Of a stretch of DNA of 64,000 nucleotides, positions 25,167 to 32,624 are shown piece after piece. The DNA comes from an uncultured Flavobacteriaceae bacterium (GTDB lineage: Bacteria > Bacteroidota > Bacteroidia > Flavobacteriales > Flavobacteriaceae). The stretch spans positions 1 to 64,000 of the forward strand of contig CALGLR010000015.1 in the NCBI GenBank assembly GCA_937959395.1, read 5' to 3'. Within the stretch, counting starts at the first letter, position 1. Each line of letters starts with the position of its first letter. The translations under genes were made by a program, and so were the position numbers. A model generated the notes under the pieces. The model saw only the letters and a list, made by a program, of their open reading frames with translations, had not been told where the DNA came from and searched no databases.

Positions 25167-26285
25167 ATGAAATTTATAGTATCAAGCACATATTTATTAA
25201 AACAATTGCAAGTTTTAGGAGGCGTTATTAATAGCTCAAACACATTACCTATTTTAGATAATTTTCTTTTTGAATTAGATAAAAATAAATTAACGGTTTC
25301 TGCTAGCGATCTAGAAACAACAATGTCTACAACTTTAGATGTAGAAAGTGACGAAAACGGTAATGTGGCTATTCCTGCTCGTTTGTTATTAGATACTTTA
25401 AAAACATTTCCAGAACAACCTCTAACATTTGTTATAGAGGAAAACAATACTATAGAAATTAGCTCAAACCATGGTAAGTATGCATTAGCATATGCCGATG
25501 GTAAAGAGTTTCCTAAGGCTGTAGAACTAGAAGATCCTAGCTCTACTACAATAGCAGGGAATATATTAGCTACTGCCATTAGCAAAACTATTTTTGCTGC
25601 CGGTAATGATGATTTAAGACCAGTAATGAGCGGTGTGTTTTTTCAATTCTCAACAGATAACTTAACTTTTGTAGCTACAGATGCGCATAAACTTGTAAAA
25701 TACACAAGAGAAGATGTTAGCGCTTCTCAAGTAGCAGAGTTTATTATGCCAAAGAAACCATTAACACTTTTAAAAGGAATTTTAGGAGCAAGCGATGAAG
25801 ACATTACTATAGAGTATAATGAATCTAATGCAAAATTCACTTTTGACAATACAATATTAATATGTCGCTTAATTGATGGAAAATATCCAAATTATGAAGC
25901 GGTAATTCCTAAAGAGAATCCTAATGTATTAAGCATAGATAGAACACAGTTTTTAAACTCTGTTAAGCGTGTGAGTATATTCTCAAATAAAACAACACAC
26001 CAGATACGTTTAAAAATTGCTGGAGCAGAGTTAAATATTTCTGCAGAAGATATCGATTATAGCAATAAAGCAGAAGAACGTTTAACTTGCGATTATCAAG
26101 GTGATGATATGCAAATTGGTTTCAACTCTCGTTTCTTAACAGAAATGCTTAATAATCTTAATTCTACAGATGTTCAGCTAGAAATGAGTATGCCAAATAG
26201 AGCTGGGATATTAACCCCAGTAGATGGCGTTGAAGAAGGAGAACATGTTACCATGCTGGTTATGCCAGTAATGCTGAATAGTTAA
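25167..26285 (+). CDS. dnaN: DNA polymerase III subunit beta (sliding clamp)
   Basis: This 372-aa protein forms the ring-shaped dimer that holds the replicative polymerase on DNA. Three clamp domains of about 120 residues are visible. Markers include LLDTLKTFPEQPL, FVATDAHKLVKY in the second domain and MLVMPVMLNS at the C-terminus (the usual MPMRL region). It ends with a strong terminator at 26321. No dnaA or oriC motif cluster is seen here, so this is not evidently the chromosome origin. Confidence 0.97.
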   Translation: MKFIVSSTYLLKQLQVLGGVINSSNTLPILDNFLFELDKNKLTVSASDLETTMSTTLDVESDENGNVAIPARLLLDTLKTFPEQPLTFVIEENNTIEISSNHGKYALAYADGKEFPKAVELEDPSSTTIAGNILATAISKTIFAAGNDDLRPVMSGVFFQFSTDNLTFVATDAHKLVKYTREDVSASQVAEFIMPKKPLTLLKGILGASDEDITIEYNESNAKFTFDNTILICRLIDGKYPNYEAVIPKENPNVLSIDRTQFLNSVKRVSIFSNKTTHQIRLKIAGAELNISAEDIDYSNKAEERLTCDYQGDDMQIGFNSRFLTEMLNNLNSTDVQLEMSMPNRAGILTPVDGVEEGEHVTMLVMPVMLNS

Positions 26286-26320: not shown

Positions 26321-26348
26321 AAAACCACAATTAAAATTGTGGTTTTTT
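26321..26348 (+). terminator. Rho-independent terminator of dnaN
   Basis: AAAACCACAATT, a short AAA loop and AATTGTGGTTTTTT form a strong hairpin with a T-run, 36 bp after the dnaN stop. Confidence 0.9.
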
Positions 26349-27062: not shown

Positions 27063-27494
27063 ATGACAAAGACTATCGAATGCGTTCTATTAATTGATGA
27101 TGATGTTGCAACAAACTTTTACAACAAAAGAGTAATAGACAAACACGAAAAATTTAAAGAAATAGTTATTGCTAACAGTGCTCGAAAAGCACTATTTTAT
27201 TTACTAGAATCTTCACTAGGCAAATGTAAAAAGCCTAGTATTATTTTCTTAGATATTAACATGCCAGGCATGAATGGTTGGGAATTTTTACAAGAATATA
27301 AAGAACTAGATGAAACAATTACTCATGATATCAAATTAATAATGCTAACAACATCTAATAGTATAGATGATTATAATAAATCATTAACCTATGATTTAGT
27401 AAATGATTTTATAAACAAACCATTATCCGGAGATTTACTAGATAATTTAATTGAAACTCACTATAATGTTATAAATAATAGAAAAATAATTTAA
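27063..27494 (+). CDS. Single-domain response regulator (CheY-like), first of pair
   Basis: This 143-aa receiver domain has no output domain. Acidic pocket residues are in LLIDDDVATNFY, the phospho-acceptor is D64 in IIFLDINMPGMNGWEF, the Thr switch lies near MLTTSNS and the conserved Lys is in FINKPLS. The DD-xxN-xxx start is the type found in Bacteroidota receivers that serve hybrid-like phosphorelays. It is followed at 40 bp by a paralogous receiver, then by a TonB-dependent receptor and a histidine kinase, which is the likely phosphodonor. Confidence 0.9.
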   Translation: MTKTIECVLLIDDDVATNFYNKRVIDKHEKFKEIVIANSARKALFYLLESSLGKCKKPSIIFLDINMPGMNGWEFLQEYKELDETITHDIKLIMLTTSNSIDDYNKSLTYDLVNDFINKPLSGDLLDNLIETHYNVINNRKII

Positions 27495-27534
27495 ACAAAA
27501 AGCAATTTTTTAGTCCCAAAAAAACCTCAAACTT

Positions 27535-27933
27535 ATGAATACTCAAACTTATAATTTTTTATTGGTAGATGACAATAACGCTACTAATTTTTTAAACAAA
27601 ATGATTCTTAAAAAATCAGGACTAGCAAGTACAGTTACTATAGCCAAAAATGGTTTAGAAGCCATAAATATTGTTAAAGAAAACACTCCCGACTACATTT
27701 TTCTAGATATAAATATGCCTGTTATGAACGGCTGGCAGTTTCTTGAAACTTATGAAAAATTAAATTTGGAATTTAAAAATAGTACTATTATTCTTATGAT
27801 AAGTGAAAAGCTAGATAAAGAAACCCTTACAATGGCTAGAACTAAATATGAATTAATAGAATATAATAATAAAATATTAAATAATACTTTTTTAGATAAC
27901 TTGATTGATACTAATTTAGTACATTTAGCCTAA
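27535..27933 (+). CDS. Single-domain response regulator (CheY-like), second of pair
   Basis: This 132-aa receiver has LLVDDNNATNFLNK and phospho-acceptor D58 in YIFLDINMPVMNGWQF. The switch region reads LMISEKLD in place of the usual T(S/T) and the conserved Lys-Pro is weakened to EYNNKIL, so phosphorylation output may differ from the first receiver. There is no DNA-binding domain. The likely kinase is the YfiR-HK encoded two genes downstream. The gap to the receptor gene is about 120 bp. Confidence 0.88.
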   Translation: MNTQTYNFLLVDDNNATNFLNKMILKKSGLASTVTIAKNGLEAINIVKENTPDYIFLDINMPVMNGWQFLETYEKLNLEFKNSTIILMISEKLDKETLTMARTKYELIEYNNKILNNTFLDNLIDTNLVHLA

Positions 27934-28053
27934 CAACTAATTTAATAAGCAGGACAGATTCAATCCTAAATTTTGTCTTTAAAAAATACTTAATTTGTGT
28001 ATTCTATAATCCCTCTTAGACATAAGATTAGAGTATCATTTATTGAGATAATA

Positions 28054-30774
28054 TTGAAGTTTTCTTACATAAAAAAAAGAATTATTCTTCTATTATTTAT
28101 CTTATTTAATGTAACTTTATTTTCTCAAAATTCTAGCCCTAGAGCTACTATTAGTGGTATCGTTTCTGATCAATTTGGCGCTTTACCTGGATCTAAAATC
28201 TCAATAGAAGGAACCAATCTAATTACGACTACAGATGTTAATGGCGCTTTTTCTTTTTCTGTAGATGAAGGCGATTATGTTATTACAGCCTCTTTTGTAA
28301 TGTACAAATCGCAATCGATTTCTGCCATAGCTAGAGTGGGACAAACTACAGAAGTAAATTTTACATTAAAAACAAGTTTTTCTATTGATGAAGCTGTATC
28401 CATAGGTTCTAGAGGTAATCCAACTTCTATTTTAAAAACAATAGTTCCTGTAGATGTTTTTTCAAATAAAGAATTAAATAATTCATCGCAATTAGAGCTT
28501 TCTCAAGTTTTACATTATTTAATACCCTCTTTTCATTCTACGCACCAAACAATTTCTGATGGTACAGACCATGTAGACCCTGCTACATTACGTGGTTTAG
28601 GTCCAGATCAAGTTTTAGTATTAGTAAATGGGAAAAGAAGACATAATAGTGCATTACTAAATGTGAATGGTACTATTGGAAAAGGTACTGTAGGCACCGA
28701 TTTTAATGCCATTCCTTTGGCTTCAATAGATAGAATTGAAGTATTACGAGACGGTGCAACGTCACATTACGGATCAGATGCCATTGCTGGAGTTATTAAT
28801 ATTGTATTAAAAAACCAAGCTAATGCTACAGATATTGATGTTAGGGGAAGAATTAACAATGAAGGAGATGGTGAATCCACGAATTTCTCTGCTAATTTTG
28901 GTTTAAAGATTGGAAAAAAAGGATTTATAAATCTTACAGGAGAGTTTAGAGAACGAGGCGCTACAAACAGAGCAGGAAACTATACTGGTCATGTTTATTC
29001 TGATGACCCAACTGAAGACGCATTACTTATTCAACAAAATAATTTCTTCTCAAAGACCGGCTTTAAAAACAATAGAGTGATGGAAATTGGTAGTGCAGAA
29101 ACCCAAAACTTATCTCTCTTTTTTAATAGTGAGATTCCTTTATCTGATACTTCTGGTTTTTATTTACATGGCGGAAGAAATTATAGAGAAGGTATAGCAA
29201 AAGGGTTTTATAGATTCCCAAAAAATAAAGATCGTGTTGTTTTAGATATATTTCCAAATGGATTCTCTCCAGAAATTCAAACAGACATTAGAGATGATGC
29301 CATAGTAGCTGGTTTCGAAGGTATTAAAAACGGTTGGAAATTAGATTTTAGCCATAGTATTGGGTCTAATGGCTTAGATTACACAATTAACAATTCTAAT
29401 AACGCATCTTTGGGAATTGCATCACCTAAAACGTTCTATTCTGGCGGATTTGCTTACAGACAAAATACTACAAATTTTGATGCTTCTAAATCTTTCGATT
29501 GGTTGAAAGGTATTAATGTTGCTTTTGGAGGTGAAATTAGAGTAGAAAATTATGAAATTATAGCAGGAGAAGAAGATTCTTATATAAATGGAGGTGAAAC
29601 CTATATTGATGATGCAGGTATAGAACAACCTAAAATACCAGGAGTACAAGTATTTCCGGGGATTCAACCAGAAAACGAACTAAGTCGATTTAGAACAAAT
29701 AGTTCTTTATATGCAGATATAGAAACCTCATTAACTGATGCTTTTATAATAAATACTGCTGCACGTTATGAAGCTTATAATGATTTTGGAGGGCAAGCGA
29801 TATGGAAATTGTCTGGACTTTATTTGCTTAATGAAAATTTAAGTTTAAGAGCTGGTTATTCAACTGGTTTTAGAGCCCCTTCTTTACACCAAGTGTTCTT
29901 TCAAAATATTAGCTCACAATTTATAAATGGAGAAATTGTGCAAGTAGGAACTTTTAATAATGAAAGCTCTGTTGCTAATGAAGCTTTTCGTATTGGAAAA
30001 TTAAAACCAGAACTATCTAAACACATTAGTATTGGTGTTAGTGGTAAAATAAAAGATAATTGGACTTATTCTTTCGATTATTATAATATAAATATTGAAG
30101 ATAGAATTGTTCTTTCAGGGCGTTTTGCTGAAGGTTACGAAACCATTCTTGCGCCTTTTAATGTAGGTGCAGCACAATTCTTTACAAACGCTATAGATTC
30201 TAAAACTTCTGGAGTAGACTTGGCTGTTAATTATAAATATAACCTTGGGAATGGAGAATTAAATGCTTCATTAGCCGGGAATTTCACAAGAACCAAGGTA
30301 GATGGACCAATTAAAGTCACTTCTGCACTTTTAAATCAAGAAAATGTGTTATTCAATAGAGAAGAAATTGGTCGTGTTGAATCTGCTCAACCCAATTATA
30401 AAATAAATAGTTTAATTTCATACGAATGGAAGAAATATAAAGTTAATATGAGAAATAACTATTTTGGAGAAGTAATATACATACATCCTGAGGATGAATT
30501 GTCTTCAAATTGGGTTGTAAATAATTTAACAGGCCAAAAAGAAACGAGAGATCAAACGTTTACTCCAAAATTAGTTACAGATTTGGGGTTTACCTATCAA
30601 GCTTTAGATTTCTTAAAAATAACTGTTGGAGGAAATAACATTTTTAATGTTTATCCAGATAAACATAAACATTCATCAAATATAAATAATGGTAATTTCG
30701 TTTATAGTAGACGCGTACAACAATTTGGAGTAAATGGCGCCAATTTCTATACACGAATAATGATGCGTTTATAA
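28054..30774 (+). CDS. TonB-dependent receptor with carboxypeptidase-regulatory-like domain
   Basis: I prefer a TTG start at 28054, which yields a clean signal peptide (MKFSYIKKRI, hydrophobic core, LFSQ). The ORF also opens upstream at a GTG (27997), but that region looks like promoter (TAATTTG at 27991). The mature protein has a CarboxypepD_reg-like beta domain (about residues 25-105), a plug with LRGLGPDQVLVLVNGKRRHN and IEVLRDGATSHYGSDAIAGV, and a 22-strand barrel ending TRIMMRL. It imports or senses a ligand at the outer membrane using TonB energy. No SusD follows. Its stop overlaps by one base the ATG of a histidine kinase, so a receptor-kinase functional link is likely. Confidence 0.88.
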   Translation: MKFSYIKKRIILLLFILFNVTLFSQNSSPRATISGIVSDQFGALPGSKISIEGTNLITTTDVNGAFSFSVDEGDYVITASFVMYKSQSISAIARVGQTTEVNFTLKTSFSIDEAVSIGSRGNPTSILKTIVPVDVFSNKELNNSSQLELSQVLHYLIPSFHSTHQTISDGTDHVDPATLRGLGPDQVLVLVNGKRRHNSALLNVNGTIGKGTVGTDFNAIPLASIDRIEVLRDGATSHYGSDAIAGVINIVLKNQANATDIDVRGRINNEGDGESTNFSANFGLKIGKKGFINLTGEFRERGATNRAGNYTGHVYSDDPTEDALLIQQNNFFSKTGFKNNRVMEIGSAETQNLSLFFNSEIPLSDTSGFYLHGGRNYREGIAKGFYRFPKNKDRVVLDIFPNGFSPEIQTDIRDDAIVAGFEGIKNGWKLDFSHSIGSNGLDYTINNSNNASLGIASPKTFYSGGFAYRQNTTNFDASKSFDWLKGINVAFGGEIRVENYEIIAGEEDSYINGGETYIDDAGIEQPKIPGVQVFPGIQPENELSRFRTNSSLYADIETSLTDAFIINTAARYEAYNDFGGQAIWKLSGLYLLNENLSLRAGYSTGFRAPSLHQVFFQNISSQFINGEIVQVGTFNNESSVANEAFRIGKLKPELSKHISIGVSGKIKDNWTYSFDYYNINIEDRIVLSGRFAEGYETILAPFNVGAAQFFTNAIDSKTSGVDLAVNYKYNLGNGELNASLAGNFTRTKVDGPIKVTSALLNQENVLFNREEIGRVESAQPNYKINSLISYEWKKYKVNMRNNYFGEVIYIHPEDELSSNWVVNNLTGQKETRDQTFTPKLVTDLGFTYQALDFLKITVGGNNIFNVYPDKHKHSSNINNGNFVYSRRVQQFGVNGANFYTRIMMRL

Positions 30775-32624
30775 TGAATGCTATATTTTACAGATCGAAT
30801 CAATTTTTAAAATCTACAATTAAATTTATTTTAATTGTATTGGTATTACTGACTTCTATTAATACTAAAGCTCAAGAAGAAAATAATGAACAAGTAAAAC
30901 GACTACAACGTTCTATTTTTATTTTCACTTTTGCACAACAAATACAATGGGAAAATAGTGAATCGTTTAATACTTTTAAAATTGGAGTATTGGGTAATGA
31001 TCGTACTTATATAGATCTTAAAGGCTTATCTCAAAAACGAAAAATTCAGAATAAAAAAGTTTCTGTAAGCCGATTTAACGCTGTTAAAGACATTAATGAC
31101 GTCCAGCTATTATATGTTAATAAACAACTTAGCTTTGATATAGACTATATACTTAGTAAAATATCTGGTAAAAACATTCTTTTAATATCTGAAGATTACA
31201 ATTTTAATTCATCCATGATAAACATTGTAAATGTTGGAAATTCATTTGAGTATGAAATTAATTCAGAATTACTTAAACAAGAAAACTTTAAAGTCGCTAA
31301 TGCTTTAAAGGCTTCTGCTGTTTCTAATTCTCAAAAGTGGAAAGATCTATATCAAGCTACAGAACAATCTTTAAATGAAGTAAAAAAAGAAAATGAGCAA
31401 AAAGAGAAAATCATAAAAACAAAAGAAGTCTTAATCAAAACAAAAGATGAAGCGATTAATATACAACAAGAAAAGATTAGCACTCAAGATTCAAAACTAG
31501 ATACTTTTAAACTCAAGGTTTCAAAACAAAACCAATCCATAAATGAGTTAGGAGATCTTAATTTACTTCAGCAAAAAAAATTCGAAGAAAAATTAGTTTT
31601 AGAACGCAAGCTAAACGATACCATTAAGGCACAAATTAAGCTAGCAAATAAACAAAAAGAAGCTATAGAATCTAGTCGTTTAAAAATTGATGAGCAAACT
31701 AAATACTTAAAAACACAAAGTTTAGAAATTGAAAACAATAAATTAATACTTAAGAGTAAAGAAGAAAAAATAAAAAGACAACAAACGATAAACTATTTAT
31801 TAGGTTTTCTGGTATTATTAACCATTATAGGAGGGTTTTTAATGTATAAAAACTATCGTACTGAAAAAAAATTAGCTACAGCTTTAGACGAAAAGAATAA
31901 AGCTATCGAAGAAAACTCGAAATTAATTAAGGCTAAAAATGAAGAATTAGAACAATTCGCTTACATCGCTAGTCATGATTTAAAAGAACCTTTAGTTACT
32001 ATTTCTGGTTTAATTACGCTATTACAAGAAGACTACGATCCATTGCTTGATGAAACAGGAAAGAAAACATTAGAATACATTAGTAAATCTAGTGATAGAA
32101 TGAAAGATTTAGTAGATGCCCTTTTAGATTATTCTAGACTAGGAAAAACTAAAGAACACACTGAAGTAAATTGTAACGAACTTGTTAATACCATAAAATC
32201 TGATTTAGCCAATATAATTGAGCGAACGCAATCAACACTAAATATTAATAAACTACCAATTGTTGAAGGTTCTCAAGTCGAGTTACGGTTACTTTTTCAA
32301 AACTTAATTAGTAACGGAATTAAATTTGTGAAACCTGGTGTGAAACCAATAATAGAAATTAATTGTGTAAAGAAAAACGATGATAACGACAAATCGAAAT
32401 CGTTTTGGGAATTCTCAATTAAAGATAATGGTATTGGTATAGCCGAAAAGCATAAAGAAAAGATCTTTTCAATTTTTCAAAGGTTACACTCTAGAGAGGA
32501 GTATGAAGGAACAGGAATTGGTTTAGCACATTGTAAAAGAATCATTGAAGCACATAACGGAAGAATTAGACTAGAATCGGAAGTTGGTATAGGTACTACT
32601 TTTTATATCTCTATTCCTGCTTAA
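30774..32624 (+). CDS. YfiR-like domain (DUF4154) histidine kinase fusion
   Basis: This 616-aa protein starts with a signal peptide or anchor (residues 1-34, ending KAQ). A periplasmic YfiR/DUF4154-type domain follows (about residues 40-175), then a long coiled coil (about 190-340), one transmembrane helix (about 341-360) and a cytoplasmic kinase. The H-box is YIASHDLKEP with His401. The ATPase has N-box LFQNLISNGIKF and G-boxes DNGIGI and GTGIGLAHCKRI. YfiR in Pseudomonas is a periplasmic switch for c-di-GMP synthesis with redox-active cysteines, but no Cys is seen in this domain. It is translationally coupled to the TonB-dependent receptor, and receivers lie upstream. Confidence 0.88.
   Translation: MNAIFYRSNQFLKSTIKFILIVLVLLTSINTKAQEENNEQVKRLQRSIFIFTFAQQIQWENSESFNTFKIGVLGNDRTYIDLKGLSQKRKIQNKKVSVSRFNAVKDINDVQLLYVNKQLSFDIDYILSKISGKNILLISEDYNFNSSMINIVNVGNSFEYEINSELLKQENFKVANALKASAVSNSQKWKDLYQATEQSLNEVKKENEQKEKIIKTKEVLIKTKDEAINIQQEKISTQDSKLDTFKLKVSKQNQSINELGDLNLLQQKKFEEKLVLERKLNDTIKAQIKLANKQKEAIESSRLKIDEQTKYLKTQSLEIENNKLILKSKEEKIKRQQTINYLLGFLVLLTIIGGFLMYKNYRTEKKLATALDEKNKAIEENSKLIKAKNEELEQFAYIASHDLKEPLVTISGLITLLQEDYDPLLDETGKKTLEYISKSSDRMKDLVDALLDYSRLGKTKEHTEVNCNELVNTIKSDLANIIERTQSTLNINKLPIVEGSQVELRLLFQNLISNGIKFVKPGVKPIIEINCVKKNDDNDKSKSFWEFSIKDNGIGIAEKHKEKIFSIFQRLHSREEYEGTGIGLAHCKRIIEAHNGRIRLESEVGIGTTFYISIPA

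Follow-up and report, generated by a model that had tools for sequence, protein, structure and literature searches.

TonB-dependent receptors (TBDRs) of the outer membrane are mostly viewed as transporters, and signalling by them is known mainly via STN domains and sigma factors. In the FecA-FecR-FecI system and the FpvA transducers, an outer-membrane TBDR signals across the periplasm, while SusCD systems associated with an HTCS link a Bacteroidota TBDR to a histidine kinase. In the YfiBNR (TpbB) system of Pseudomonas aeruginosa, a periplasmic YfiR domain joins an outer-membrane component, the OmpA-like lipoprotein YfiB, to an inner-membrane effector, the diguanylate cyclase YfiN, which carries a CHASE8 domain. 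YfiR binds outer-membrane YfiB by a surface that overlaps the predicted YfiN site (PMC4655355). The distance between the two membranes limits signalling from the outer to the inner one, and RcsF-type signalling depends on a component of sufficient length for the periplasm (PMC5736177).

The locus described here, from an uncultured Flavobacteriaceae bacterium, lies within a stretch of 64,000 nucleotides that was analysed as a whole (the window), and in its general layout it resembles each of these systems. Unlike FecA-FecR-FecI and FpvA, it lacks both an STN domain and an anti-sigma/sigma pair, and the proposed target of the signal is a kinase. Unlike SusCD/HTCS loci, it has neither SusD nor a one-protein DNA-binding HTCS, and the sensor of its kinase is YfiR. 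In comparison with YfiBNR, the gene for the outer-membrane partner encodes a TBDR rather than the lipoprotein, a histidine kinase with free receivers is present in place of a diguanylate cyclase, and YfiR is fused to the kinase through a coiled-coil stalk, CHASE8 having been dropped. While the length-critical part of RcsF signalling resides in an outer-membrane lipoprotein, here it resides in the kinase. The four genes constitute a conserved signalling cassette of marine flavobacteria that is apparently undescribed.

Organization of the four-gene locus

The locus comprises four open reading frames on the + strand: RR1 (27063-27494; 143 aa), a canonical single-domain receiver (R type); RR2 (27535-27933; 132 aa), a degenerate single-domain receiver (D type); the TBDR (27997-30774; 925 aa, GTG start); and a YfiR-histidine kinase (30774-32624; 616 aa) in which Pfam identified DUF4154, HisKA and HATPase_c. 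All four reading frames and their Pfam domains agree with the coordinates and gene order of a preliminary description of this DNA (receiver, receiver, TBDR, YfiR-kinase), and the one-base overlap that it reported between the TBDR stop and the kinase start corresponds to base 30774, common to the stop codon and the kinase ATG. A GNAT-like gene lies upstream of the four genes and a DUF4870 gene lies downstream on the opposite strand. The flanking reading frames were translated or scanned with Pfam, and here too the preliminary description was correct: SusD is not encoded adjacent to the cassette, and no anti-sigma/ECF sigma pair or transporter was found among these frames. A DNA-binding hybrid sensor (HTCS) is likewise absent from the adjacent genes. 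A perfect inverted repeat (AAAACCACAATTAAAATTGTGGTTTT, 26321-26346) comes after the gene at 25167-26285 and is followed by T-rich sequence, the two together likely forming a terminator.

Within the TBDR, Pfam placed a CarbopepD_reg_2 domain at 28150-28395, a Plug domain at 28435-28794 (2.1e-18) and a beta-barrel at 29149-30642 (1.2e-29), all on the + strand; no STN signalling domain was detected in this protein by the same method. The fold of an AF2 model (pLDDT 77) matched PfeA, FepA and BtuB, the PDB matches being siderophore and B12 receptors of approximately 15% identity. Alignment of homologs revealed a conserved SxDExVSxGSR-like segment ahead of the plug that resembles a TonB box. The same comparison indicated that a signal peptide begun at a TTG codon (28054) would be cleaner than one begun at the GTG (27997), and the true start of the receptor probably lies downstream of the GTG, perhaps at this TTG.

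At its N terminus the kinase carries a signal sequence whose last residues are AQ. This is followed by a periplasmic YfiR domain (30870-31343, + strand; Pfam DUF4154, 1.5e-18, 67.7 bits against a curated cut-off of 24.9), a charged coiled-coil stalk of approximately 149 aa (31341-31787, + strand; residues 190-338, about 22 nm if fully helical), a single transmembrane helix (31788-31847, + strand; residues ~339-358, with a hydropathy maximum of 2.17 at residue 339) and a kinase core of HisKA and HATPase_c recognized by Pfam and by motifs (31947-32618, + strand). The H box, N, G1 and G2 motifs are intact (H401, N510, N514, DNGIGI and GTGIGL), and the position of H401 is occupied by histidine in 81 of 81 kinase homologs. 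No other DUF4154 protein was found in the genome to which the window belongs. While the lone YfiR domain sequence had no match among PDB sequences, a profile of the domain and its Bacteroidota relatives found P. aeruginosa YfiR in the PDB (3e-9). An AF2 monomer model of the kinase had a pLDDT of 79 overall and of about 90 in the YfiR domain; among the matches listed by a Foldseek search with this model there were kinase cores only, and the search therefore says nothing about YfiR.

Counted from where the YfiR domain ends up to the transmembrane helix, the stalk measured 142 ± 5.5 residues in 75 homologs, or approximately 21 nm as a coiled coil at 0.1485 nm per residue. This length is close to the usual width of the Gram-negative periplasm. 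The stalk contains no proline and has a hydrophobic period of 6.95-7.0, or the 3.5 harmonic, in the seven sequences inspected. A heptad pattern was also observed in its length: the distance between N163 of the YfiR domain and H401 was 217, 224, 231, 238 or 245 residues, all multiples of seven, in 67 of 81 homologs. Of 21 changes in stalk length inferred from the phylogeny of the kinases, 15 were steps of ±7 or +14 (p ~5e-9 against 1 in 7); four of the six non-heptad changes amounted to 3 or 10 residues, shifts that can be accommodated within a coiled coil. These lengths point to a continuous helical path whose register is important all the way between the sensor head and the phosphorylated histidine. 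In the AF2 model helices span residues 187-252 and 264-420, with the stalk broken at low confidence between 252 and 264. Heptad-phased signalling helices are a known theme among kinases; what is unusual here is a heptad-phased helix of periplasmic length that bears a YfiR head.

Linkage and co-evolution of the receptor and the YfiR domain

A scan of 84,980 genomes was anchored on the TBDR and the closest 80 loci were kept, these being the best 80 of a larger number. Their TBDRs are 46-70% identical to the TBDR of the window over nearly the full length. By the preliminary description's own criterion, a lack of linkage in other genomes would have spoken against its reading; instead, a YfiR-kinase was encoded immediately downstream of the TBDR in 76 of these 80 best-matching loci, far more often than chance would give. 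The four TBDRs listed without one (one from Microscilla, three from Saprospiraceae) are all among the more distant relatives. The receptor and kinase genes overlap in 50 of the 76 listed loci, with a junction of -4 in 42 and of -1 in eight. The commonest arrangement among the 76 was that of the window (RD-TBDR-HK, 23 loci), followed by R-TBDR-HK (18), loci with no adjacent receiver (17), RDRD (8), TBDR-HK-R (5), RRD (3), and RDD and TBDR-HK-D (one each). Because 17 of the listed loci were counted without an adjacent receiver, receivers cannot be regarded as obligatory members of the cassette. The genes flanking the cassette vary from genus to genus. One Dokdonia isolate (807) encodes two paralogous TBDR-kinase cassettes (L119 and L144), of which one is receiver-less and the other has an RD pair.

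Co-occurrence was assessed in the genome of the window and 149 genomes of the same family. A DUF4154 kinase was found in seven of these genomes and a TBDR ortholog (at least 1179 bits) in six, all within the kinase-bearing seven (6 with both, 1 with the kinase only, 0 with the TBDR only; Fisher p ~5e-10, uncorrected for shared ancestry). The cassette was absent from the single genome of the same genus that was sampled. Across this set the cassette is therefore patchy, yet its parts travel together. The kinase-only exception is G072, in whose genome no TBDR ortholog was found; at its locus (L042, 8121-10517) a receiver adjoins the YfiR-kinase, with only a short gap at the usual site of the TBDR. 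Since this genome keeps the receiver and the kinase, the kinase can persist without the TBDR. The kinase stalk of G072 has a length of 218, which is off the heptad series.

The next-best TBDRs in the same genomes scored at most 559 bits and belong to a sister family. This family (L171-L174 among others; about 40% identity, 516-559 bits) is present in a dozen Flavobacteriaceae genomes, all of which except G072 lack DUF4154. Because nearly all of them lack it, the sister family would be a natural comparison for effects of YfiR coupling on the TBDR.

Corrected distances were then compared among 67 non-redundant loci, with the 46 closer loci taken as an ingroup. Across the 67 loci, distances of the YfiR domain correlated more closely with those of the TBDR (barrel 0.88, plug 0.85, carboxypeptidase-like domain 0.87) than with those of its own kinase core (0.63). 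In the ingroup the respective values were 0.84, 0.68 and 0.63, compared to 0.50 for the kinase core. The bootstrap 95% confidence interval for the difference between the YfiR-barrel and YfiR-kinase core correlations was 0.10-0.38 in the full set, compared with 0.03-0.48 among the ingroup loci. The corresponding interval for the carboxypeptidase-like domain excluded zero in the full set only and touched 0 in the ingroup. Contact between YfiR and the TBDR would yield correlations of this kind, an indirect indication drawn from sequence divergence to which rate differences could contribute.

The pairing of a TBDR with YfiR extends beyond this receptor family. At 20-21 of 34 other Bacteroidota DUF4154 loci the immediate neighbour was a TBDR on the same strand, and at most of these a kinase is either fused to YfiR or follows it. 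Plug and barrel domains were present in nine of ten upstream genes checked at other Bacteroidota YfiR loci; these TBDRs are of other families and match the TBDR of the window weakly. Where YfiR is encoded separately in Bacteroidota, four of four kinases checked carry CHASE8-HAMP-PAS. On proteobacterial plasmids the order TBDR-YfiR-effector was found in four of four matches, with effectors of composition CHASE8-HisKA-HATPase-REC in Sphingobium and CHASE8-GGDEF-EAL in Caballeronia and Pseudoalteromonas. The TBDR-YfiR-CHASE8 operons of these plasmids and of many Bacteroidota share the outer-membrane and periplasmic parts of the cassette, with the TBDR directly 5′ of YfiR, and differ from it in having a separate YfiR and an effector with CHASE8 (and PAS/HAMP in several). 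In their CHASE8 effectors, these separate-YfiR relatives resemble YfiBNR, and the TBDR-YfiR-effector loci imply a YfiBNR-like circuit with a TBDR in the place of YfiB. At two Bacteroidota loci (L058 and L059) a YfiR gene is paired with a kinase and no TBDR was detected; these YfiR proteins may use another outer-membrane partner.

These comparisons qualify the statement of the preliminary description that no described system of this composition was known to it. A literature search for YfiR or DUF4154 together with TBDRs, with most subscription journals and preprints outside its reach, found no paper describing TBDR-YfiR operons, and in this respect the statement stands; however, TBDR-YfiR-effector operons are themselves common in Bacteroidota and present in Proteobacteria. 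The parts of the cassette belong to known families, and it is their arrangement that is a new variation on YfiR-based envelope signalling.

Operon linkage alone would produce the same pattern if the receptor and the kinase were co-regulated without physical coupling, such that the kinase by itself responds to conditions in the periplasm (redox, envelope stress or a small ligand bound by YfiR) and the TBDR is either its target or a co-expressed transporter of the same ligand. The presence of the kinase without the TBDR in G072 would fit such an explanation, as would the apparent completeness of the TBDR as a transporter, with a plug and barrel that match PfeA and BtuB. We nevertheless regard it as unlikely, while granting it some weight: the receivers have no DNA-binding output able to regulate the TBDR, the divergence of the YfiR domain follows that of the TBDR better than that of the kinase core to which it is joined, the stalk is of periplasmic length with conserved register, and YfiR is also found paired with TBDRs of other families and in loci whose output is c-di-GMP. 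Taken together, operon linkage, co-occurrence, co-evolution and stalk geometry strongly support the initial proposal that the TBDR signals via the YfiR-like domain to the kinase.

Canonical and degenerate receivers

Both receivers were recognized by Pfam as Response_reg (1.6e-15 for RR1 and 2.2e-15 for RR2). RR1 has all of the residues of a canonical receiver (DD, D, T and K-P), its phospho-acceptor being D64 (codon 27252-27254), and in a quick tree of the receivers it groups with the receiver that stands alone upstream in Lacinutrix modules. RR2 retains DD, D58 and K and lacks the full canonical set: the switch threonine and the cis-proline are gone, the former being replaced by I or by S according to the alignment used and K-P by K-I, as expected from the weakened switch motif noted at the outset. 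RR2 is 47% identical to a D-type receiver of Aquimarina (L128_up1) versus 38% identical to its neighbour RR1, and it falls within a D-type clade of 44 members (SH-aLRT 95), a placement that carries a long-branch warning (branch 1.92).

DD, D, T/S and K-P are all retained by the 76 cassette-adjacent sequences of R type. A further 46 sequences make up the D type, whose defining feature is that no proline follows the lysine; DD and K are retained in 44-46 of the 46 and the phosphorylatable D in all 45 that align there, while the switch residue is mostly lost (G in 40) and the proline is replaced by M or I in 42. In each of the 35 listed loci with at least two upstream receivers it is a D-type receiver that adjoins the TBDR, and in eight listed loci the RD pair is repeated in tandem as RDRD. 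Because the D-type group shares the same losses, the weakened switch of RR2 is a conserved trait. Having kept the phosphorylation site and lost the switch, the D type would most naturally serve as a sink for phosphate or as a modulator of the kinase, and judging from these residues RR2 most likely acts in one of these ways. A precedent, though only for a receiver that is phosphorylatable yet locked, is offered by SsoR, a different, transcription-activating regulator (PMC12442407). The initial proposal, in which receiver-only proteins form the output of the kinase, is thereby qualified: the two receivers are not equivalent, RR2 being one of a conserved degenerate class whose members are probably modulators and not outputs, and at about 17 of the 76 listed loci no single-domain receiver is adjacent.

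The long branch of RR2 and the many modules with a single receiver, including the 18 R-TBDR-HK loci, would also be expected if RR2 were a dying duplicate with no role and RR1 alone served the cassette, a situation otherwise compatible with control by the TBDR. Decay of this kind seems quite improbable, however, given that these losses are conserved among the D types of Aquimarina, Dokdonia and the window, which in multi-receiver loci invariably adjoin the TBDR, that their acidic pair, phosphorylatable aspartate and lysine are so consistently retained, and that RD pairs occur in tandem.

A proposed model of TBDR-gated signalling

That the TBDR no longer transports and acts instead as a ligand-gated, chemoreceptor-like transducer is very unlikely: its near-obligate pairing with the kinase and its strong conservation (mean column identity 66% in 35 sequences versus 47% in 36 sequences for the kinase) speak for such a role, but the intact plug and barrel and the conserved TonB-box-like segment (DE-x-V-S-x-G-S/T-R) suggest that TonB-driven transport persists.

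The explanation that we favour, and consider probable, is that in this cassette a two-component sensor following YfiR logic is gated by the TBDR. The receptor would reside in the outer membrane and the YfiR head would be carried on a coiled-coil stalk of approximately 20-22 nm, presumably two-stranded; a stalk of this length would bring the head to the side of the TBDR that faces the periplasm, either at the plug or at the N-terminal CarboxypepD-like domain. Changes in the TBDR driven by ligand or by TonB would alter its hold on the YfiR domain, and sequestration as seen for YfiB-YfiR is, by analogy, a mechanism that the TBDR could copy. The altered posture of YfiR would then be transmitted along the register-locked stalk and through the single transmembrane helix to the DHp domain, a shift of which would set the balance of kinase and phosphatase activity. 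Phosphoryl groups would pass to the canonical receiver RR1, while the degenerate receiver RR2 would compete for phosphoryl groups or for the kinase and thereby temper the RR1 signal. Whereas gene order, domain content, sequence conservation (that of the R and D types included), the heptad steps of the stalk and co-evolution were observed, we infer the physical contact between TBDR and YfiR, the way in which control runs, the transfer of phosphoryl groups, the part played by D and an output made by receivers only, through protein contact; our confidence in the exact roles of R and D is lower than in TBDR-gated control itself.

A more specific version of this model is put forward tentatively, as one that could well be right without being the expected outcome. 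Here the kinase would physically read the TBDR by means of a rigid stalk of approximately 21 nm that serves as a periplasmic ruler, with the same register maintained between the sensor and the phosphorylated histidine. It would feed a conserved receiver pair, of which one is switch-competent and the other, switchless, acts as an in-built phosphate sink. The cassette would then belong, as a single branch, to a wide class of TBDR-YfiR signalling in Gram-negative bacteria that has no name.

The cassette and the wider TBDR-YfiR operons would constitute a second route from outer-membrane receptors to the cytoplasm, one that connects TBDRs to two-component and c-di-GMP signalling. Moreover, the heptad-stepped stalk of periplasmic length opens the question of how a signal crosses the periplasm to direct testing.
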